From: Leptospiraceae bacterium
GTDB taxonomy: Bacteria > Spirochaetota > Leptospiria > Leptospirales > Leptonemataceae
Reading direction: 5' to 3'
NCBI GenBank assembly: GCA_026418015.1
Contig: JAOACE010000008.1
Coordinates: forward strand, 186,001 to 250,000
DNA: 64,000 nucleotides
Each line of letters starts with the position of its first letter. Position 1 is the stretch's first letter. Below are positions 9,410 to 60,057 of this stretch, one piece after another. A program made the translations under genes and the position numbers. Under the pieces are notes generated by a model, which was not told the origin of the DNA, did not search any database, and saw only the letters and a program-made list of their open reading frames with translations.

Positions 9410-9441
9410 GCATAATCAGCCATGATGTTGGTTGATTATGC
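9410..9441. terminator. 13-bp hairpin between the outer-membrane gene and the helicase pseudogene
   Basis: GCATAATCAGCCA (9410-9422) pairs with TGGTTGATTATGC (9429-9441), including one G-T pair, around a 6-nt loop. It is preceded by TTTTT on the + strand and followed by TTCC. It sits between convergent coding regions and could terminate either. Confidence 0.5.
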
Positions 9442-10715
9442 TTCCTGGATAATCGATAATTCCTTGATTCGTACAAAATTTTTAAAATCGCAATCTTTAC
9501 AGATGTGACGTTCTGGTGGATTTTTTACATCAAACCTTTTTTGTTTTATCTTATCTACAATTTTATCAAAGTGCACCGTAATTTTTTTTATTTCTTTTTC
9601 GTGTAAGAAAATTCCATTAAAGCATCGTTTCGTTTTTTTCCTCGGAAATCGAAAAAGTTTTTTTGGAAAATGAGTATTGGAGCGAAAACTTTGGTTCATC
9701 AAAGAAACTAGACTAAAATTAGGTTCGAACCAGTCGTTGGGATTGCCAGATGTTTTCAAAACAAGAAGATTCTGAGCTCGCGAAAAAGCTACATAATAAT
9801 GTCTTATCTGAACGAATTGATTCGTCTGTTCTTCTTTTTCGAAAGCACCTCTTTTCGAAAAAGGTAAAAGATATCTATCTTCCTCCTTTTGAACCAAAAA
9901 ATTTTTATTCAGAAAACCTACAAATACAACAGGAATTTCTAATATATTTCTTACAGTTGCTTTGCGAAATCGATAAAATGCTTGATCTTCGTCTCCTACA
10001 ACGCAAAGATTATTTTTTTGGAAATGTCAATTTAACAAGAATCTGTTCTTGAATATAATTTGTATCTTGGTATTCATCTACCATTATATACTTTATACCT
10101 AATTTGATTTTTTTGTATATATCTGGATGGTTTAACAATTCGTAAAAGATTTTTTGTAAGTAGGCAAAATCGATTTTATTGTTTTGGTAAAGCAATTCTT
10201 CGTAGGATCGATATGCCTTTGCAAGTAAAGGATAAAAACCTTGTTGATTTTCTAGTGTTCGAATTTCTATCAATTCTTTGGTAATCTAATTGAGGTATTT
10301 TACGGATTCTTTGATTGTTCTCCATTTCGAGCTCCATATTCTTAATTAACGTCCATTTTCTTGAAGAAAGATTTTTTAAGATAAAATCATTACACAAATT
10401 ATGGAAGATTCCAATTTTTAAGTCACTTAGTTTTTCTGTATAACCAATCTTTTCTGCAACCTGAAAAAATTCTATCTCGCATTTCGAAAGCAGATTTTTC
10501 GGTAAAGGTAGTTAAAACAATTTCGATTAGTTTTGCCTTACCAGAAATAACGAGATACAGCGTTCGAAGAATAAGCGTAAGAAGTTTTTTCGGTTCAGGA
10601 ACCGGCTAGAATTAAAAGTGGTCCATCTGTGGTAAGAATGCATCGATTCGATTTTGGTTTAAGTTTGGAAAAACTTCTTTAAATGCTTTTATAATATCCT
10701 TCAATGAAATATCCC
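9436..10715 (-). pseudogene. Decayed UvrD/AddA-type superfamily 1 helicase
   Basis: Remnants of an SF1A helicase can be read leftward across all three minus-strand frames. They include a degenerate Walker A region near 10600-10640 (LILAGS-x-x-E-K-T-like with a stop and shift), motif Ia as IVLTTFTEKSAFEMRDRI near 10490-10550, and a FHNLCNDFILKN segment near 10380. Motif II is VDEYQDTN near 10070, and motif III is CVVGDEDQAFYRFRKAT near 9980. The text then jumps from NILEIP to VVFVGFLNKNFL (motif V region) and motif VI HYYVAFSRAQNLLVL near 9800, so roughly motifs IV to V are deleted. The C-terminus has a CKDCDF Cys pair of the kind found in nuclease-fused helicases. Several frameshifts and the internal deletion mean it cannot make a functional protein. 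Confidence 0.85.
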
Positions 10716-11086
10716 TTAATAAATTTTGTTATAAATTTGTAAAATTATTATTATTTTGTCAATTCTTTTGTTTGTGAACTAATAAATAATCTTTTTTATA
10801 AAATTGATTGATTTCAATTTCAATCTTTAAAGCATAAATTTTTAAATTTAATAAATTTTTTTAATATTCTCTATAAAGATACTAAATAATCATTGACAAA
10901 AAAATAATTCATATTAGAAAATCCCAAAAGGGAGAGAGTATTTGTGATTTTTGCTCATTTTCTTTATCTTTCTAAAAATTCATTAAATTTTTCTATTTAT
11001 ATTATAAATTCTTTTATAAATATTATTAGCATTTTATTTTGTAAAATTAATATACTTTTTCGACTTACATAAAGAAGAGGAAGTAA
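10716..11086. other. AT-rich leader ahead of the type III-A operon
   Basis: About 370 nt without a gene. It holds a TTGACA box at 10893-10898 with TATTAG 13 nt further on, and a small inverted repeat TCCCAAAAGGGA at 10922-10933. The rest is A/T-rich and shows no repeated units: there is no CRISPR array or leader-repeat boundary here. The csm operon promoter is presumably inside it. Confidence 0.5.
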
Positions 11087-13429
11087 ATGAATAGTTATTT
11101 AAAAATAGCTCTAAAAGCTATATTAGATTCATTCCAAGAATTATACAAAAAAAACCAAAAAAATTTTCCTATAAATGATGATATTCTTTTAACATCTGAA
11201 GAAAAAGATGCTTTGGATAAAGCAAAAGAAATCTTAGGAAATATACAAGAAATAAACTCTTTAAAACCAGTTTTCGAAAAAATCTCTTTTTTAGATAATG
11301 ACAGTACTACTTTTAAACATCAATACACATTGCAACCATTAGATTATAATCGTTTAGAATCCATTATTTTTCCTATAGAGAATCAGCAGTCTGAAAATTT
11401 TTCGGATTTTTTAACAAAATTCGAAAAGGAATTGAAGGTATCTCTGCAATTTAACGATTTAAAAAAATTTTATTTTTATTATTACCTTGCACAAAAGTAT
11501 CTTTGGTGTATTACTATCTCTAAACAAAATCCCGATTTATCTATGTTTGATTATGTTAGAGTATTATCTGCAATATCAATAAGTTTATTTGATTATTATA
11601 TAGAAAATCAAAACATTGATTGGAATAATCCAACATTCTTAATATACGAAGCAGACATAAGCGGTATTCAAAAATTTATCTATAAAGTGAATAAAACCCC
11701 CGAAATGGAAGAAAAAACAAAATTCTCTATACCGAAGGTTTTACGAGGAAGGTCTTTTTTTATTTCTATATTACCTGAATTATTAAGTAGATATATTTTG
11801 CAACAGCTCGATTATCCTATAACAAATCTATTATATGCAGGTGGTGGCAAGTTCCAACTGATTTTACCAAACACAGAAAAAGTTAAAAAAATTCTAGAAG
11901 ATTTTAAAAAAACCTTATCGAACTATTTATTTGAAGAATTCCATACAGATTTGGGAATTGTAGATGGGTATATACCATTAGGGAAAAAAGATTTTGAAGA
12001 AAATCAACTAAAAGATGTTCTGTTAAAATTACAATTAAAGTTGGATCAAAACAAAAAAAGAAAATTTTCTAAATTTTTTATACAAGATTTTAAAAACGAT
12101 ACCAATAGGGTTTGTCAATCATGTCATTCTCTTCCTCCAAAAGATGATCATCTTTGTAAATGGTGCAAACGTTTTAACGATTTAGGAGAGAAACTTGTTA
12201 AATCCCAAGAACTATACATCACTTATATCTTTAAAAACATCAATAAAAAACCAGACATTGATTTTAGTCCTTTTGGAAAATTCTATCTACTTGAAACGTT
12301 AGATCCAGAAATAGAAAATAATGCTAAAGAAATTTTGTTATTAAATTCAACTGATTTTTCTCAGAAAAAATTTGCAAATGGGTTTAAATTTTTGGCAAAT
12401 TTAGTCCCAACATTGAACCCAAAAATCAGAGAAGCTCTAAAAAAGAAATTAGAAAACCAAGAAGATAAAAACGAATTAAACCAACTAGAAGATAATTCCA
12501 TTCTATCCTTTAACTTTATTGCAGAGTTTTCTAAGGGAGATAAAAAATTAGGAATATTAAGAGCAGATTTGGACAATTTAGGATTAATTTTTAGTGATGG
12601 ATTAAAAGACTATTCTTTAATAAGGATTGCTACATTAAGCAGAATGTTGGATCTTTTTTTTACAGCTTACATATGTATTTTAATCAATAGCATAAAAGAA
12701 AATGATCTTGATGCCAATTTAATCTACACTGTATATTCAGGCGGAGATGATTTATTCTTAATTGGGCCTTATCATTTAATCATAAAAATTGCCGTTGAAC
12801 TTAGAAAAAGATTTTATTACTTTACCGCAAAGAATTTAGATTTAGGAATATCGAGTGGAATAGCCATTTTTGGTCCTAATGTAAACATACCTTTTATGGC
12901 AAAATCATCCGAAGAGAGCGAAAGCCTATCTAAAAAAGCTATTTTTAAGGACGTTCAGAATAATGTTTATATAAAAGATGCTATAAGTATATTCAATAAA
13001 AGCTTTAAATATTCTTCTAAAATAACTGGCATTAGCACTTTAAACAAAAAATTATCTCCACATTATAAAAATGGTTTTTTAAGTTATATAAATTTCGAAA
13101 CAATCTTATCTTTAACAGATGAACTTGTAAAATTCATAAAAAATAAAAAAATTTCGCGATCTTTATTATTTCGAATTCTCTCTCTCTACAACAATTACAT
13201 CGAAATAGATGGAAAAATCAATCCATTGATTTATCCAAAGATCTATTACCAAATTGGAAGAAATGTAAAAGACGAAAACGCGAAGAAATCAATCGAAGAA
13301 TGGTTTTTAAAGAAAGGTTATAAGATTCAGGAGGATTATATTCCAAGAAATGACTTAATTCGAAATTTAGACGTTATACTTTCGTTAGCAATTATGTTTA
13401 CAAGAGGAGGAAGAACAAATGACGAGTAA
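11087..13429 (+). CDS. csm1: Type III-A CRISPR Cas10 (Csm1), HD domain degenerate
   Basis: A 780-residue large subunit of the Csm interference complex. A zinc-binding quartet is seen as C343, C346, C357 and C360, between the two Palm domains. The cyclase motif GGDD lies at residues 552-555 (YTVYSGGDDLFLIG), so synthesis of cyclic oligoadenylates on target RNA binding is expected. The N-terminus, where family members carry L-L-H-D-I-G-K of the HD ssDNase, reads ALKAILDSFQELYKKN and no H-D pair follows. The DNase is therefore probably dead. IYEADISGIQKFIY is the usual Palm1 entry. An AGAGGAAG-type ribosome site precedes the ATG. It overlaps csm2 by 11 nt. Confidence 0.95.
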   Translation: MNSYLKIALKAILDSFQELYKKNQKNFPINDDILLTSEEKDALDKAKEILGNIQEINSLKPVFEKISFLDNDSTTFKHQYTLQPLDYNRLESIIFPIENQQSENFSDFLTKFEKELKVSLQFNDLKKFYFYYYLAQKYLWCITISKQNPDLSMFDYVRVLSAISISLFDYYIENQNIDWNNPTFLIYEADISGIQKFIYKVNKTPEMEEKTKFSIPKVLRGRSFFISILPELLSRYILQQLDYPITNLLYAGGGKFQLILPNTEKVKKILEDFKKTLSNYLFEEFHTDLGIVDGYIPLGKKDFEENQLKDVLLKLQLKLDQNKKRKFSKFFIQDFKNDTNRVCQSCHSLPPKDDHLCKWCKRFNDLGEKLVKSQELYITYIFKNINKKPDIDFSPFGKFYLLETLDPEIENNAKEILLLNSTDFSQKKFANGFKFLANLVPTLNPKIREALKKKLENQEDKNELNQLEDNSILSFNFIAEFSKGDKKLGILRADLDNLGLIFSDGLKDYSLIRIATLSRMLDLFFTAYICILINSIKENDLDANLIYTVYSGGDDLFLIGPYHLIIKIAVELRKRFYYFTAKNLDLGISSGIAIFGPNVNIPFMAKSSEESESLSKKAIFKDVQNNVYIKDAISIFNKSFKYSSKITGISTLNKKLSPHYKNGFLSYINFETILSLTDELVKFIKNKKISRSLLFRILSLYNNYIEIDGKINPLIYPKIYYQIGRNVKDENAKKSIEEWFLKKGYKIQEDYIPRNDLIRNLDVILSLAIMFTRGGRTNDE

Positions 13430-13961
13430 ACAACAAACACAAGAATCATTCGATGAGCTAGCAAAAAAAATATTGAATTACAAAAAAACTGACTTAAAAG
13501 ATAAAGATAAAATAAAAAATATTAAAGATTCATATACTAGGCTTTCTAAAATAGTATGTGATGATGTAGAGTCCAAAGGCATATTAAAAATAGATCTAGA
13601 ACAATACATAAAACCACAAGGATACTGCGAAGTATTAGCCTATGCAATTGGTCTATTGGATAATTTAAAGAAAAGTCAACTTCGTAAGTTCTTTAACGAA
13701 ATCAAATCCCTCGAGTACGATTTAAAAGGAAATGCAGATATAAACAAAATTAAAATCAGAGTAATATCTTTAATTCCTAAACTTGCGTATTCTAAAGGAA
13801 GAGGTTTATTGGATGATCATTTTTTTACATTTATGAAAATCCTTCTAACAAAATTAAGAAATGATATGAACGAACAAAATGCTCAAGAGGTTTTTGGTAC
13901 GTTTGTAAGTATATTAGAAGCCATCTTAGCATATCATACTTATTATTTTAAGGAGGCATAG
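13419..13961 (+). CDS. csm2: Type III-A small subunit Csm2 (Cas11)
   Basis: A 180-residue helical protein with the Csm2 core YCEVLAYAIGLLDNLKKSQL followed by RKFFNEIKSLE, which corresponds to the family's L-x-x-S-Q-[IL]-R-K-F-[FY] motif. PKLAYSKGRG and a C-terminal helical hairpin follow. The N-terminal 55 residues are a Lys-rich extension, making it longer than the usual 120-140. Csm2 subunits stack along the crRNA-target duplex as the minor filament. The ATG lies inside the last codons of cas10, preceded by GAGGAGG in the cas10 coding sequence, so translation is coupled. Confidence 0.92.
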   Translation: MTSKQQTQESFDELAKKILNYKKTDLKDKDKIKNIKDSYTRLSKIVCDDVESKGILKIDLEQYIKPQGYCEVLAYAIGLLDNLKKSQLRKFFNEIKSLEYDLKGNADINKIKIRVISLIPKLAYSKGRGLLDDHFFTFMKILLTKLRNDMNEQNAQEVFGTFVSILEAILAYHTYYFKEA

Positions 13962-13962
13962 A

Positions 13963-14712
13963 ATGAATAAACCATTAAAAGGGATCATCAAATTAAAATG
14001 CAAAATTATTGTATTAACAGGACTTCATATCGGTGGTTCAAAAGAAAATGTAGAAATAGGTGGAATCGATAATATTGTAATAAAAACACCTGTAATAAAA
14101 TACGAAAACAAAACAGAAAGAAATGTTCCATACATACCAGGCTCATCTCTAAAAGGAAAAATGAGAGCATTATTAGAATGGATAGAAAAGCCTCATAATG
14201 GTGATAAAGTAATTGCTCTTTCTAAAGGAGGTGAACCTTGCAATTGTGGAAAATGTATCGTATGTAAACTCTTTGGTGCACACAAAAATCAAAATACAGA
14301 AGAACCAGTAAGACTAAGAATAGAAGATTTTTATCCCACATTAGAGACCATCAAACTTTGGAATAAAGTTTTAGATGGGGATTTTGTAGAAATCAAAGTA
14401 GAAAATACGATTAACCGTGTAAAAGGAACAGCAGAACATCCGCGTCATCAAGAAAGGGTCATTCCCTTTTCCGAATTCGAAGGTAATATAAAGATTCGCA
14501 TACACGATGGTGATGGAGAAGAATTATACGATGCAATAAAACGTGGAATCAAACTAATCGAAGATGATTATTTAGGTGGTAGTGGTTCAAGAGGTTATGG
14601 TAAAGTAAAATTCGAAATCGTAAAAATCTTATGGTCTGACTATACAAAACCAATAATTGAAGAAAAGGAAATAAACGAAGAGAACTTAAAACAAATGATT
14701 GGAGCAAAATAA
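13963..14712 (+). CDS. csm3: Type III-A backbone RNase Csm3 (Cas7)
   Basis: A 249-residue RAMP protein. The expected catalytic Asp for 6-nt-spaced target RNA cleavage is present as D36 in EIGGIDNIVIK. IPGSSLKGKMRALLEW (about residues 62-77) is the conserved Csm3 helix. A Cys cluster, CNCGKCIVCKLFG, is the zinc-binding loop, and GGSGSRGYGKVKF is the C-terminal glycine-rich RAMP loop. Csm3 forms the repeating spine of the effector complex around the crRNA. The start is 1 nt after the csm2 stop, with AAGGAGG just upstream. Confidence 0.96.
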   Translation: MNKPLKGIIKLKCKIIVLTGLHIGGSKENVEIGGIDNIVIKTPVIKYENKTERNVPYIPGSSLKGKMRALLEWIEKPHNGDKVIALSKGGEPCNCGKCIVCKLFGAHKNQNTEEPVRLRIEDFYPTLETIKLWNKVLDGDFVEIKVENTINRVKGTAEHPRHQERVIPFSEFEGNIKIRIHDGDGEELYDAIKRGIKLIEDDYLGGSGSRGYGKVKFEIVKILWSDYTKPIIEEKEINEENLKQMIGAK

Positions 14713-14713
14713 A

Positions 14714-15661
14714 ATGCTTAAAGCTTATAGGATTGTATATCTATCTCCAACATCTATTATAAGAAGTTTTACTCTTTTTGGTGCTATTTGTTGGAATTAC
14801 AAACTGATTTATGGAAAAGAAAAACTAGAAGCTTTGTTAAACGAATTTATCCATAATCCACCATTTTTTATTTCTTCGGCATTCCCCTATATAAAAGATC
14901 AATTTTTGTTTCCAAAACCCATTCTTCCATTAAAAGGCGAAAAAATTGATTTCGAAACAAAAATTCAGCGAAAAGCATTTAAAAAAGCTCAGTTTGTTAC
15001 CTTTTCGATTTTTAAAGAAATTTTAGAAGGAAACATAAAATACGAAGAAGACTTTTCTCGATTTAACATTAAATCTGGTATAATACAAGAAAAAGAACTA
15101 GAACTTAAATTAGAAATTACAAGACACACACAAGTAAGAAATCTTATCAGTAGAAATAATCTTTCATCTTTAAATTTATATTTTATAGAATCTGATTATA
15201 AATTATATGATGAATATTTTCTAATATATTTTTTAAATAATAATTTTATAAAAGAAATTAATAGTATATTTAAACTAATAGAAGAAAACGGAATCGGTGG
15301 AAAAAAGAGCATAGGCTGGGGTAAAGTCCAAATACAAGAGATCGAAAACGAATTCATATCAGAAATAGAAAAAAAAATTAATTTTAAGAATAAATGTTTC
15401 GTTACCCTCTCTCCTATTATTCCCAGTCAAAATATTATTTCTAACAACAGTTACTACGAAATAGAAACCATCAAAAGCTATACAGATAGTACATTCGAAA
15501 AAGAATTTTTAAAAAATAAAGTTTTATACTTAAAAGAAGGTTCTTTGATTGTAAAAAGCGAAAACAAACTTACTGGATTGTTAAAAAACGTAGGGAATAA
15601 CATCTATCAATATGGTTTAGAATTCCCATTAGAGGTAAAATTATGTACAATTACAGATTAA
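14714..15661 (+). CDS. csm4: Type III-A crRNA-tag subunit Csm4 (Cas5)
   Basis: A 315-residue Csm4. I start it at the ATG at 14714 (MLKAYRIVYLSPTSIIRSFTLFG) rather than an in-frame TTG at 14699, because a GGAG at 14701-14704 lies 9 nt ahead. Family features are an N-terminal RAMP strand, the gating segment TLFGAICWNYKLIYG, and the glycine-rich loop GIGGKKSIGWGKVQI near residue 200. Csm4 binds the 5' tag of the crRNA and pairs with Cas10. The start directly follows the csm3 stop; the end overlaps csm5 by 19 nt. Confidence 0.93.
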   Translation: MLKAYRIVYLSPTSIIRSFTLFGAICWNYKLIYGKEKLEALLNEFIHNPPFFISSAFPYIKDQFLFPKPILPLKGEKIDFETKIQRKAFKKAQFVTFSIFKEILEGNIKYEEDFSRFNIKSGIIQEKELELKLEITRHTQVRNLISRNNLSSLNLYFIESDYKLYDEYFLIYFLNNNFIKEINSIFKLIEENGIGGKKSIGWGKVQIQEIENEFISEIEKKINFKNKCFVTLSPIIPSQNIISNNSYYEIETIKSYTDSTFEKEFLKNKVLYLKEGSLIVKSENKLTGLLKNVGNNIYQYGLEFPLEVKLCTITD

Positions 15662-16668
15662 AGACAATTACTCCGATTCATATTGGAAACGGAAATAAGC
15701 TCACGAACTTAGACTTTATACAAGAAGGAAACCTAATCCATGTTATTTCCTTCGATAAATATATTTCTTTATTAAACGAAGAACAATTAAATAGATTAGA
15801 AAATATATTACAATACAAACAATTGAATGATTTATCCAAAGAAGTTCGAAAGCATTTAAAAGAATGTTTAAAATATAGAACAAGATTAGAAACACTTACT
15901 AAGAATAACAACATCCAAGAAATCGTAGAACACATAAAAACAACCTTTAATAAAAATGGCGAATATGGAATCTATATACCTGGTTCTACCATTAAGGGTT
16001 TTATTCGATTTGCTATACTATATAAAATGATTAAAGAAAACCCCAACATAATTGAATGTAAAAACAAGAACGATAAAAACAATGTTTCAAATGTAGAAAA
16101 CAAACTTTTTACAATTGAATGGAAAGATAATCAATCAAAAACTAGTTACTTAAAAACCATGTCTTATCTTAAAATATCCGACTCGGAAACTATTAGTATT
16201 GATCATTTATTCATAAATTATATTCATGTTTATAACTCAAAACGTCCAATTGCAGAATATGTAGAAGTAATAAAAAAAGACACATCCATTCGATTAAAAA
16301 TTAAAGAAGATTTTAAAAATTTTATTTTCGATAGCGAAATCAATAAAAATAATATAAAAAAAGTCCAAGATTGGAAAGAAGCATGCTATGAATTTTCTAA
16401 GGATATCATTGAAAACGAAATCAATTTTTTTAAGCAAAGAAATAAAGAAAATATTGTAAAATTATATCAAGAATTAAAAGAATTAAACCAAAAAGATAGC
16501 CCCCTTCTTCGAATTGGAAAATACAAAGGGAAAATAAGTCAAACATTGGTTTTGCTAAGCCAAAAAAATGAATGCCTAAGAACCAGTTTTCCCAAAACAA
16601 GAAGATTGGTCGATAATAGCATTCCTTTGGGATGGATTAAATTAGAAAAAATTCCCGAAAAAACCTAA
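15643..16668 (+). CDS. csm5: Type III-A cap subunit Csm5
   Basis: A 341-residue RAMP protein starting MYNYRLKTITPIHIGNGNKL, the standard Csm5 opening (L-K-x-x-T-P-x-H-I-G-[NS]-G). IPGSTIKGFIRFAILY is the central helix and LLRIGKYKGKISQTLVLL the late conserved block. Csm5 caps the complex at the 3' end of the crRNA and recruits host nucleases for 3' trimming. It is the last gene of the operon. No cas6 follows. The stop lies 4 nt from the stop of the convergent CARF-HEPN gene, and no terminator hairpin lies between. Confidence 0.93.
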   Translation: MYNYRLKTITPIHIGNGNKLTNLDFIQEGNLIHVISFDKYISLLNEEQLNRLENILQYKQLNDLSKEVRKHLKECLKYRTRLETLTKNNNIQEIVEHIKTTFNKNGEYGIYIPGSTIKGFIRFAILYKMIKENPNIIECKNKNDKNNVSNVENKLFTIEWKDNQSKTSYLKTMSYLKISDSETISIDHLFINYIHVYNSKRPIAEYVEVIKKDTSIRLKIKEDFKNFIFDSEINKNNIKKVQDWKEACYEFSKDIIENEINFFKQRNKENIVKLYQELKELNQKDSPLLRIGKYKGKISQTLVLLSQKNECLRTSFPKTRRLVDNSIPLGWIKLEKIPEKT

Positions 16669-16672
16669 ATCA

Positions 16673-17905
16673 TTATTCTATCTTGATTCTATCTTGCTTA
16701 ATATTTTCGTAAAATTGAAACGTTTTTTCTAGAGTTACTTTGAGTTTTTCTTCGTTTTTTATTGCTTCTTCTGCTTCTTTTTTGGGTTCAACATCTATAT
16801 TATCATGATTTATAACCGTTCCATGAGCAGTGGCATTTCTTAAGTATTTTAGAACCTTCCAATCGTAGATATGATTGTTATCTAGTCTTTCTTTTGCTTC
16901 GTTTCTTTTTCTATAATCTAAATTAGAACTGCTATTAATAATGCCTATCTTATATCCTACTAATAGAAGAACTGCTTCGTGCAGTAATAAAATCGCTTTA
17001 AGATATTGACCTCTATTGAAAAAGAATCGCGCCCTATTTCTTAATCGATCAGGAAAATTATCTTCTACAAACTGCTTGATGTATTTTTCTTTAACCTCCT
17101 GATGAATTGCATCTGCATAAGAAAGAGCATTTTTGGTCGATAAGAGTTCTTTGATTTTTTCTGGTCCAATTGCAGAATTGATTTCCATTTTAAAATAGAT
17201 TTCATCAGCTTTTGAATTTTTTTTATCAATTAGGCTATAATAATTTTTAAAGTTTCCTGTACTTTCTAATACTTCTAAGGTTTCTCCTAATTTTACTAAT
17301 TCTTCTAAATGATTTAAACGAATAACGGGCATGGTTCCATCTTCGTTTTTATGTTCTAAAAAACCATAAAATATTTCTAACTCGAAGTTTTTGATCTTTT
17401 TTAGTACTAACAAATCCAACAACACAACAAAAGGTAAATATCGATATCCATGAGTTAGATCAAAGATAATTTTATTATATTTTTCTTTATCTAAAAGCAA
17501 CAAAAGCTTTTCTATAATATTTTTAGAAATTTCTTCTGGTAAAGGAGGATTTTTTAACAAAGAAAAATCTATCTTAATATTTTCGCTTTGCTCAATCAAA
17601 GAAAAAAATTTTTTTAAATTATCCTGGTCAATTTCTTTATTGTTTTTTATCTCTTTTTCTTGTTTAGAAATTTCATTGACCAATTCATCATCCGAAACAT
17701 TTTCTAATAAATCGATTGTTTCTGGCCAACCAGATTCATTCGTTCCAATAAAATATAAATCGATATTTTCTCCTTTTGATCTTAAATAATTAAACAATGC
17801 AACACCAAATAAATATTTTTCGATGATTTGTTGTTCAGAAAATTTATATTTTGTTTTTTGGTATTTGCCTTTTCCTATAAAACTAATTAAAATGGACTTT
17901 AACAT
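16673..17905 (-). CDS. CRISPR-associated DxTHG-family CARF-HEPN ribonuclease (Csx1-type)
   Basis: 410 residues from the ATG at 17905, chosen because GGGAGG lies 6 nt ahead; an upstream in-frame Met would add 16 residues. The N-terminal CARF domain starts MLKSILISFIGKGKYQKTKY and holds the signature FDLTHGYRYLPF (D149-L-T-H-G153) that names the DxTHG family. The C-terminal half contains an HEPN motif, LRNATAHG (R356-x4-H361). Relatives are non-specific RNases switched on by cyclic tetra- or hexa-adenylate made by Cas10. It converges on csm5, so it has its own promoter while remaining physically tied to the Csm operon. The exact ligand ring size cannot be read from sequence. Confidence 0.9.
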   Translation of the reverse strand: MLKSILISFIGKGKYQKTKYKFSEQQIIEKYLFGVALFNYLRSKGENIDLYFIGTNESGWPETIDLLENVSDDELVNEISKQEKEIKNNKEIDQDNLKKFFSLIEQSENIKIDFSLLKNPPLPEEISKNIIEKLLLLLDKEKYNKIIFDLTHGYRYLPFVVLLDLLVLKKIKNFELEIFYGFLEHKNEDGTMPVIRLNHLEELVKLGETLEVLESTGNFKNYYSLIDKKNSKADEIYFKMEINSAIGPEKIKELLSTKNALSYADAIHQEVKEKYIKQFVEDNFPDRLRNRARFFFNRGQYLKAILLLHEAVLLLVGYKIGIINSSSNLDYRKRNEAKERLDNNHIYDWKVLKYLRNATAHGTVINHDNIDVEPKKEAEEAIKNEEKLKVTLEKTFQFYENIKQDRIKIE

Positions 17906-18079: not shown

Positions 18080-18925
18080 ATGGGGATAAGCACAAAAAAG
18101 CAAACGATTAAACAATCAGTTCTATACGAAGAATTAAAAGAACTTAAAGACGACGTATTTTATAAAATATCTTACCAATCTATTCTAAAAGAATTAAATA
18201 TTACTTACGAAGATTATGTTTCTATGTTGTACAAAAATTATGGTATCTTTCAACCACCGGAATTTTTCGATAAAGACAACTTATCTTTGCTAATAGATAT
18301 TCTAAAATTTTATCAACAAGAAGAATTGCTAAATATCATAAAAAAATGGGGGATGTATTTTGAACCCCAGGAACTAATGGAATGGTTAGAACACTATATT
18401 TCCATAACTCTAAGTATTTTATCGAATCATGAAGTAAAACTCGATTCTTTAGAAATTAGTTTAGCTGGTTGTAATAATCCCTACGAAGCTTTTGATTTTT
18501 ATTGCAACCTAAACATCGACGAAGATTACATTTACAAAAAAACAACAGAATTATTCTTAAACAAAAAAAACATTAAACCCAACGATTTTAATTTTTATTT
18601 ATTAACTCAATACATAGAAAATTGCTACGAAAGAAAAATTCTATCGCAGGACATTTTATACGAAAGTTTTTATAAAAAACTTTATGATATAGGTTTAAAA
18701 AATAATTTTATAAAAAATAATCATAAAATCAATAATAATTATAACTTTAAGAATGAATATTTTAAAACCTTCGGGATAGAAAAATTGCCAGCTACCAAAG
18801 AAGAATTAAAAAAAATCTATTTTTCTTTGCTAAAGAAATACCATCCCGATAAAAATCCCTCTGGATTAGAGAATACAAAAAAAATCATCGAAGCATACAC
18901 AAAGCTTATAGAATACTATGAGTAA
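18080..18925 (+). CDS. Protein with C-terminal J domain
   Basis: 281 residues. The first 220 are an acidic and aromatic helical region I do not recognise. The last 55 are a J domain: YFKTFGIEKLPATKEELKK, then YFSLLKKYHPDKNPSG with the HPD tripeptide that stimulates DnaK ATPase. Having the J domain at the C-terminus, with no Gly/Phe or zinc region, makes it a type III J protein that probably delivers a specific client. It overlaps the thioredoxin-like gene by 8 nt. A TTGACA box lies at 18044-18049. Proximity to the CRISPR effector is probably incidental. Confidence 0.8.
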   Translation: MGISTKKQTIKQSVLYEELKELKDDVFYKISYQSILKELNITYEDYVSMLYKNYGIFQPPEFFDKDNLSLLIDILKFYQQEELLNIIKKWGMYFEPQELMEWLEHYISITLSILSNHEVKLDSLEISLAGCNNPYEAFDFYCNLNIDEDYIYKKTTELFLNKKNIKPNDFNFYLLTQYIENCYERKILSQDILYESFYKKLYDIGLKNNFIKNNHKINNNYNFKNEYFKTFGIEKLPATKEELKKIYFSLLKKYHPDKNPSGLENTKKIIEAYTKLIEYYE

Positions 18926-53476: not shown

Positions 53477-54027
53477 TGATAGTTTTTGCCAAAATAGAGT
53501 TATAAATTTATATGAGAGTCGATCAATACACAACAAAAAAATTTTCTTTTGTTTGTTTGAATTTAGAACCACAGCATTATGAATTCTTAAAAGAAATTGC
53601 CAACACCCGTTTTGATGGAAGCTCTTATCGTGCCATTTTTTATTTGTTGAATAAATACCTTCATCATCTTTATGAGATAAGAATTACACCATCAAAACTA
53701 ACAGAAACAGCAACCTATCAGCCCAGAACCAAACAATACAAGAGAAGAACCATCAAGATGAATCCCGTTTTATGGAGCAAGTTGTTCGAAACAAGGCATT
53801 TTGTAGGGTATTCAATTAGTGCAATGGTAAGAATTATGCTCGACTGGGAGATGCAATCTCAGGGATACGACATAATTCCATTGGTAGCATTGCCTCAGTT
53901 GCCAAGAAATGTTTTTGATCCTGCTTTGTCTGAACATTGGATAAATAATTATTCTTACAAGAAGCAAGGAATTTACGAATCAAGAGAAATTATTTGTAGT
54001 TTTTTGGATGAATTCGGTTGATAATAT
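53477..54027 (+). repeat. Direct repeat, copy 1 (DUF1564-like gene plus leader)
   Basis: About 550 bp highly similar to 59507-60057 in the same orientation. It covers about 35 nt of leader (TGATAGTTTTT ... ATAAATTTAT), the whole 510-bp gene and the first bases after the stop, after which the flanks diverge. Confidence 0.9.
53512..54021 (+). CDS. DUF1564-like protein, copy 1
   Basis: 169 residues, soluble and basic in the middle. LNLEPQHYEFLKEIA, then TATYQPRTKQYKRRTIKMNP and VLWSKLFETRHFVGYSISAM resemble the Leptospira paralogous family DUF1564 (LIPE-like N-terminal helix, YQ...K-R segment, then a V-W-x-x-L-x-x-x-x-x-x-G-x-S helix pair). The fold may be a ribbon-helix-helix-like DNA binder, but this is inference. 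It is 95% identical to a second copy at 59.5 kb (differences at about eight positions). Function unknown. TTGTCA and TATATT with a 14-nt spacer lie at 53439-53464. Confidence 0.6.
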   Translation: MRVDQYTTKKFSFVCLNLEPQHYEFLKEIANTRFDGSSYRAIFYLLNKYLHHLYEIRITPSKLTETATYQPRTKQYKRRTIKMNPVLWSKLFETRHFVGYSISAMVRIMLDWEMQSQGYDIIPLVALPQLPRNVFDPALSEHWINNYSYKKQGIYESREIICSFLDEFG

Positions 54028-54715: not shown

Positions 54716-54724
54716 TTGTATATT

Positions 54725-55624
54725 ATGAGATTGCAAAATCTTACAGAAAAGATTCAGCAAGTATTTCCCGAGCATCAGTCCAAGGTTCTGCAAGAAGTTC
54801 TTAATTTTATGGATGAGCTTGTTAAAGTAAGTGATTTTAATGAACTCAAATTAATCGTTAAGGAATTAGCAGAAGCTCAAAAACGAACCGAACAAAAGTT
54901 AGAAGAATTAACAGATGCTCAAAAACGAACCGAACAAAAGTTAGAAGAATTAACAGATGCTCAAAAACGAACCGAACAAAAGTTAGAAGAATTAACAGAT
55001 GCTCAAAAACGAACTGAACAAAAGTTAGAAGAACTAGCAGATGCTCAAAAAAGAACTGAACAAAAATTAGAAGAATTAGCAGATGCTCAAAAACGAACTG
55101 AACAAAAATTAGAAGAACTAGTAGAAGCTCAAAAACGAACTGAAGTAAGGTTCGAAGAATTAGCAGATGCTCAAAGAAAAACCGAAGAGAAGTTAGGAAA
55201 ATTGATAGAAGAGCACCAAACCACAAGACAAGAATTAGGTGGGTTATCTCATTCTTTTGGTTATTTGTTAGAAGATAGGGCATACAAAGGCCTACCTGCA
55301 ATATTAGAAAAACAATGGGGAATTAAAGTCAAAGAGCCTTTAAAAAGAGATATATTTCCTTATAAATGCGATAGGAAGTTAGAAATCAACATTATTGGTA
55401 AAGGCGAAAAAGATCAAAAAGAAATATGGATTATCGGAGAGTCAAAATCCCAACTAAAAAGAAAGCATGTAGATCAATTTATTCGAAAACAATATATATT
55501 TGAGGAACTTTTTCCTGGCGACAAGTTTTATTTAATGGTTACACATATGACCGATCCAGAAGTTAAAGCATATGCAGAAAAGCAAGGTATACGAGTATTT
55601 TACTCTTACGAATTTCACTTATAA
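54725..55624 (+). CDS. Coiled-coil repeat protein with PD-(D/E)XK-like C-terminus
   Basis: 299 residues from the ATG at 54725 (a TTG three codons earlier is also in frame). After a helical head (1-44) come eight 14-residue units, [14 protein letters not shown] and variants (45-156), forming a long two-heptad coiled coil. The C-terminal 120 residues ([18 protein letters not shown] ... YSYEFHL) resemble the PD-(D/E)XK-type domain that follows coiled coils in DUF3782-like proteins. The E-x-K pair is seen as IIGESKSQ, but the usual preceding Asp is Asn ([10 protein letters not shown]), so nuclease activity is uncertain. These proteins are common in thermophiles and cyanobacteria, and their function is unknown. 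Confidence 0.7.
54857..55192 (+). repeat. Eight tandem 42-bp repeats
   Basis: Eight in-frame 42-bp units encode the 14-residue coiled-coil repeat. Units 2-4 are nearly identical in DNA and the last two have drifted most, so copy number is likely to vary by slippage or recombination while keeping frame and heptad phase. Confidence 0.9.
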
Positions 55625-59506: not shown

Positions 59507-60057
59507 TGATAGTTTTTCGCAAAAAAGAGATATAAATTTATATGAGAGTCGATCAATACACAACAAAAAAATTTTCTTCTGTTTGTTTGAATTTAGAACC
59601 ACAGCATTATGAATTCTTAAAAGAAATTGCCAACACCCGTTTTGATGGCAGTTCTTATCGTGCCATTTTTTATTTATTAAACAAATATCTGTATCATCTT
59701 TATGAGATAAGAATTACACCATCAAAACTAACAGAAACAGCAACCTATCAGCCCAGAACCAAACAATACAAGAGAAGAACCATCAAGATGAATCCCGTTT
59801 TATGGAGCAAGTTGTTCGAAACAAGACATTTTGTGGGGTATTCAATTAGTGCAATGTTAAGAATTATGATAGAATGGGAGATGCAATCTCAGGGATACGA
59901 CATAATTCCCTTGGTAGCATTGCCGCAATTGCCAAGAAATGTTTTTGATCCTGCTTTGCCTGAACATTGGATAAATAATTATTCTTACGAAAAGCAAGGA
60001 AGTTACGAATCAAGAGAAATTATTTGTAGTTTTTTGGATGAATTCGGTTGATAATAT
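59507..60057 (+). repeat. Direct repeat, copy 2
   Basis: Second copy of the about 550-bp unit at 53477-54027, same orientation, 6.03 kb downstream. Similarity begins about 35 nt before the gene and ends just after its stop. Confidence 0.9.
59542..60051 (+). CDS. DUF1564-like protein, copy 2
   Basis: 169 residues, identical to the copy at 53512-54021 except for about eight substitutions (for example F13S, H51Y, and LD to IE in the RIM-x-x-WEM helix). Both copies are intact and the changes are mostly conservative, which suggests both are under selection or the duplication is recent. The gene ends about 190 bp from a tRNA pair. Confidence 0.6.
   Translation: MRVDQYTTKKFSSVCLNLEPQHYEFLKEIANTRFDGSSYRAIFYLLNKYLYHLYEIRITPSKLTETATYQPRTKQYKRRTIKMNPVLWSKLFETRHFVGYSISAMLRIMIEWEMQSQGYDIIPLVALPQLPRNVFDPALPEHWINNYSYEKQGSYESREIICSFLDEFG

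Follow-up and report, generated by a model that had tools for sequence, protein, structure and literature searches.

A type III-A (Csm) CRISPR locus in the 64-kb stretch of a Leptospiraceae genome analyzed here (the window) encodes a Cas10 protein, Csm1, that has lost its HD nuclease site and kept an intact cyclase site. We consider it very likely that this RNA-targeting complex, deprived of the HD DNase of Csm1, acts through cyclic oligoadenylates (cOA) that would activate CARF-HEPN RNases, together with RNA cleavage by Csm3. Signaling combined with Csm3 cleavage is the best reading because the cyclase is intact and a CARF-HEPN effector is encoded beside the operon.

The csm operon and its effector genes

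The features of the locus, with window coordinates, are as follows.

9436-10730, reverse strand: fragments of a UvrD/PcrA-type helicase spread over several frames (PF00580 at 9436-10026 and 10013-10273), immediately upstream of cas10
11063-11086, forward strand: csm1 translation start region, AAGAAGAGGAAG (Shine-Dalgarno-like), then an in-frame TAA directly before the ATG
11087-13429, forward strand: cas10/csm1, encoding 780 aa; HD domain lost, GGDD and Cys4 sites intact (TIGR02578, Csm1_B, Cas10-Cmr2_palm2)
11087-11260, forward strand: codons of the N-terminal remnant (58 residues in place of a 109- to 136-residue HD domain); modeled helices 3-22 and 37-50
12740-12751, forward strand: codons of GGDD, residues 552-555, the cyclase active site (invariant in 22/22 Csm1)
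13419-13961, forward strand: csm2 (PF03750, TIGR01870)
13963-14712, forward strand: csm3, GGID loop with its catalytic Asp intact, sequence IGGIDNIVIK (TIGR02582, 204 bits)
14699-15661, forward strand: csm4 (TIGR01903, 171 bits)
15643-16668, forward strand: csm5 (TIGR01899, 118 bits)
16673-17905, reverse strand: CARF-HEPN effector (Csx1/Csm6 type), DxTHG motif present as FDLTHG, HEPN motif RNATAH (TIGR02221, TIGR02549, PADLOC)

The 780-residue protein matched the type III-A Cas10/Csm1 profile TIGR02578 at 462.8 bits (cut-off, 170), and Pfam recognized Csm1_B and the second palm domain, Cas10-Cmr2_palm2. An AlphaFold2 (AF2) model, computed with an alignment of 22 sequences as input, had a mean pLDDT of 84.9 and a pTM of 0.87, and a Foldseek search with the whole model returned best hits that were all Csm1, the top solved structure being 9ash_A (E 4.6e-34). 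The genes csm2, csm3, csm4, and csm5 follow csm1 as one intact operon of close or overlapping genes. Based on a Csm1-family Cas10 accompanied by csm2 to csm5, the locus is classified by its predicted gene content as type III-A. The Asp of the Csm3 GGID loop is the known RNA-cleaving residue of Csm3 proteins. In Csm1, both the Palm2 GGDD, which marks the HD-less systems that remain cyclase positive, and the Cys4 zinc site (C343, C346, C357, and C360) are invariant across the 22 aligned Csm1 proteins, bearing out the initial annotation, which had described both sites as intact.

Genes for cOA-sensing effectors are found at two places in the genome. PADLOC assigned the protein encoded at 16673-17905 to CARF2--CARF_HEPN (E=1e-92); a sequence search returned no solved structures for it. 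The genome of the window, G000, encodes a second CARF-HEPN protein of the Csx1/Csm6 type (411 aa; L088:8893-10128) on contig C13, where no cas gene was recognized in about 9 kb of flanking sequence on each side.

Several neighboring genes were recorded alongside. The C13 effector gene adjoins genes for two related lipoprotein-like proteins of 357 to 360 aa, and the effector gene in the window adjoins one for a 281-aa DnaJ-domain protein (18080-18925) whose J-domain is C-terminal. Elsewhere in the window, two near-identical genes for 169-aa proteins (53512-54021 and 59542-60051; 95% identical DNA over 300 bases) show weak DUF1564 similarity, and a third relative lies beside a type I-B cas8 (L067:8025-8549). 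The protein encoded at 54716-55624 has tandem 14-residue coiled-coil-like repeats (a 42-base repeat in the DNA) followed by a weak DUF3782 match.

The N-terminal part of Csm1 and its relatives

The first histidine of the window Csm1 is H78 and the second is H286; therefore, the N-terminal part holds neither an H-D pair nor a set of histidines for an HD metal site, as the initial annotation had noticed for the pair. Up to window residue 58, from which the alignment is common to all sequences, the protein has 58 residues and no His, compared with 109 to 136 residues and 4 to 9 His in HD-bearing relatives. The TIGR02578 alignment covers profile positions 69 to 753 of 753, with nothing before position 69. 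The initial annotation had proposed aligning the protein with Csm1 and modeling its N terminus; we did both, and the AF2 model of this part contains just two helices, 3-22 and 37-50, with no metal ligands. Based on this length difference and the two-helix model, most of the HD domain is gone, reduced to a stub lacking metal ligands, which is more than a change of motif. The initial annotation was right that the nuclease site is lost and overlooked that most of the domain went with it. By sequence, the protein has neither the H-D motif nor the full N-terminal HD domain predicted for a Cas10 with an active HD nuclease.

It is plausible that helix 3-22, which contains KIALKAILDSFQELYKKN and was modeled with a pLDDT of about 90, is the counterpart of the old HD-motif helix. 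The initial annotation had gone further, reading KIALKAILDSFQELYKKN as the replacement of L-L-H-D-I-G-K with the same helical pattern. The modeled helix favors that reading, as does a start-anchored comparison with the Csm1 of another genome of the genus, G003 (7/24 identical; shuffle p = 0.0009). Against it, KIALKAILDSFQELYKKN had no significant similarity to a profile built from 14 HD-bearing relatives (p = 0.54, or 0.16 with the motif columns removed), and a local comparison made without anchoring gave no significant match and preferred another register.

Csm1 matches occurred in 31 of 393 sampled genomes of the phylum; within the genus, one of the three other genomes sampled, G003, carries the gene (locus L009). 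Its product is 43% identical to the window Csm1 and starts with MQEIEKIALLGLLQDIGIFYQRA, in which LLQDIG stands for LLHDIG (His to Gln) and the Lys of GK is replaced by Ile. Like the window protein, it has no H-D pair and an intact GGDD, but some 96 residues of its HD region remain, as opposed to the 58-residue remnant. The surroundings also differ: type I-B genes are linked to the csm locus in G003, cas6 lies directly upstream of cas10 there and not in the window, and no CARF-HEPN gene resembling that of the window was found in the G003 genome.

The N-terminal alignment comprised the window Csm1 and 21 relatives, including a Staphylococcus Csm1, and TIGR02578 identified all 22 sequences as Csm1; the Csm1 sequences of L010, L011, L050, L055, L060, and L065, which are affected by contig ends or frameshifts, were left out. 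A contig scan with the window Csm1 alone returned a single distant relative, Staphylococcus Csm1. The H-D pair is absent from 8 of the 22 aligned proteins. A tree built without the HD columns joined the window and G003 proteins at 100/100 support and, for this small sample of 22 sequences, needs 4 changes in the HD motif, of which strongly supported branches force at least 3. The variants (LD/DS, QD, YD, HS, YN, and HG) differ in the way that would be expected of separate losses; the change count alone cannot separate loss from gain, and the biology of the family makes loss the natural direction. In three other genomes of the phylum, the cas10 genes at L053, L061, and L062 encode point-degenerate HD motifs (HS, YN, and HG) near HD-bearing sisters, and in the genomes with L053 and L061 (G075 and G368), CARF-HEPN-like genes lie no more than about 20 kb away on the same contig.

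The genus might preserve steps of HD loss, with the G003 protein point-degenerate and partly shortened and the window stub kept as a scaffold of the complex or a gate of the cyclase, an idea that we regard as unlikely. If it were true, the stub would be a minimal regulator of cOA synthesis. Comparison of these two Csm1 proteins of the same genus, that of G003 with its point-degenerate HD domain and that of the window with its stub, could reveal which HD part the cyclase still needs.

Guide supply and the state of the locus

No CRISPR array was found within the 64-kb window. Targeted searches, on which all genome-wide statements about G000 are based, located cas1 on contig C22, together with type I-B-like genes and a CRISPR array whose 30-base repeat, GTTTCAATTCCTCATAGGTACGCGATAAAC, is present in a total of 54 copies; G003 has near-identical repeats. 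Searches of G000 with PF10040, PF01881, TIGR01877, and the G003 Cas6 did not find a Cas6, with a gap possible in this 97.9% complete genome of 28 contigs. At the position that cas6 occupies in G003, the window has a gene-free stretch and the broken pieces of the UvrD-type helicase. Cas6 is an accessory for crRNA maturation that is often supplied in trans, and subtypes are assigned without it. Its apparent absence from a genome that has a Csm operon, a type I-B-like operon, and an array of 54 repeats counts against our reading, of which it is the main loose end, unless the gene falls in an assembly gap.

The missing cas6 could also be taken, along with the HD loss and the broken helicase, as a sign that the locus is decaying and the system out of use. 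That this neighborhood does decay is clear from the helicase remnants, which lie in several frames immediately before csm1, and both the fruitless Cas6 searches and the lack of an array in the window fit such a history. Nevertheless, csm1 to csm5 and the effector gene are all full length with their catalytic motifs kept, the Cas10 motifs persist at 43% identity to the G003 relative, suggesting long selection, and cas1 and the 54-repeat array are present in the same genome. Taken together, we find disuse quite improbable.

An error of assembly or annotation, by which a frameshift or wrong start would conceal a normal HD domain, is very improbable, even with frameshifted helicase pieces in the adjacent region. 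The csm1 start codon is firm and no N terminus was missed, since the gene begins right after an in-frame TAA and behind the Shine-Dalgarno-like AAGAGGAAG just 5' of the ATG. We read all upstream frames and found no HD-like peptide. Nor is the HD loss a sequencing accident, because the nearest relative found, the same-genus G003 protein, has LLQDIG in place of LLHDIG and thus also lacks the His. A hidden N terminus is already contradicted by these observations.

That DNA is still cut in trans by another HD or nuclease subunit, such as the Cas3-like HD protein (FTHDLGKA) encoded next to cas1 on C22, seems next to negligible, as that Cas3 sits within a type I-B gene set and we know of no such nuclease sharing for Csm complexes.

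In the signaling reading that we favor, guides would be supplied by the 54-repeat array on C22, and the Csm complex would detect target RNA. On target RNA binding, the Palm domains, with the Palm2 GGDD, would synthesize cOA, which would switch on the CARF-HEPN RNases, while Csm3 would cut the bound RNA and no DNA would be cut through Cas10. The cOA synthesis, its ring size, the activation of the RNases, and the supply of guides from the array are predictions from gene content.

Comparison with known type III systems

Across 1113 type III loci surveyed, the HD domain was recognized in 39% of all Cas10 proteins and 65% of those of type III-A, and the cyclase was present in 92% of all Cas10 proteins (PMC11229360). 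About one in three type III-A systems is known to have lost HD while keeping the cyclase, and Csx1 is the commonest effector (Hoikkala et al. 2024, PMC11229360). We found no difference of kind between the window system and the HD-less, cyclase-positive III-A loci of that study (PMC11229360).

Two characterized systems invite closer comparison. The type III-B Cmr system of Vibrio metoecus, whose Cas10, like that of the window, has no HD domain, signals through cA3 and the effector NucC (PMC8682760); the window system is of type III-A and has CARF-HEPN proteins as its predicted effectors. The type III-A system of Serratia ATCC 39006 also has an intact Cas10 GGDD; its remaining HD His can be mutated without consequence, and interference depends on cOA and NucC, the Csm3 RNase also contributing (PMC13060164). 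The Serratia HD domain is degenerate with H17 kept, whereas most of the domain is deleted in the window protein, and the Serratia effector is the DNase NucC (cA3), in contrast to the CARF-HEPN RNases encoded here (PMC13060164).

The signaling-only defense proposed by the initial annotation, with cOA and Csm3 RNA cleavage, is partly supported by the HD loss, the intact cyclase, and the CARF-HEPN gene beside the operon, but such a system does not form a new class. Because no more than 65% of III-A loci have HD and a precedent exists in Serratia, the window system is not a new kind. It is common for III-A systems to be HD-less and cyclase-positive, and genetic tests have been carried out on one of them (PMC11229360, PMC13060164); the window holds a well-resolved further example of an ordinary arrangement. 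Its Csm1 leaves the known picture of type III systems unchanged and adds a clean case to the evidence for repeated abandonment of DNA cleavage by type III-A systems in favor of second messengers.
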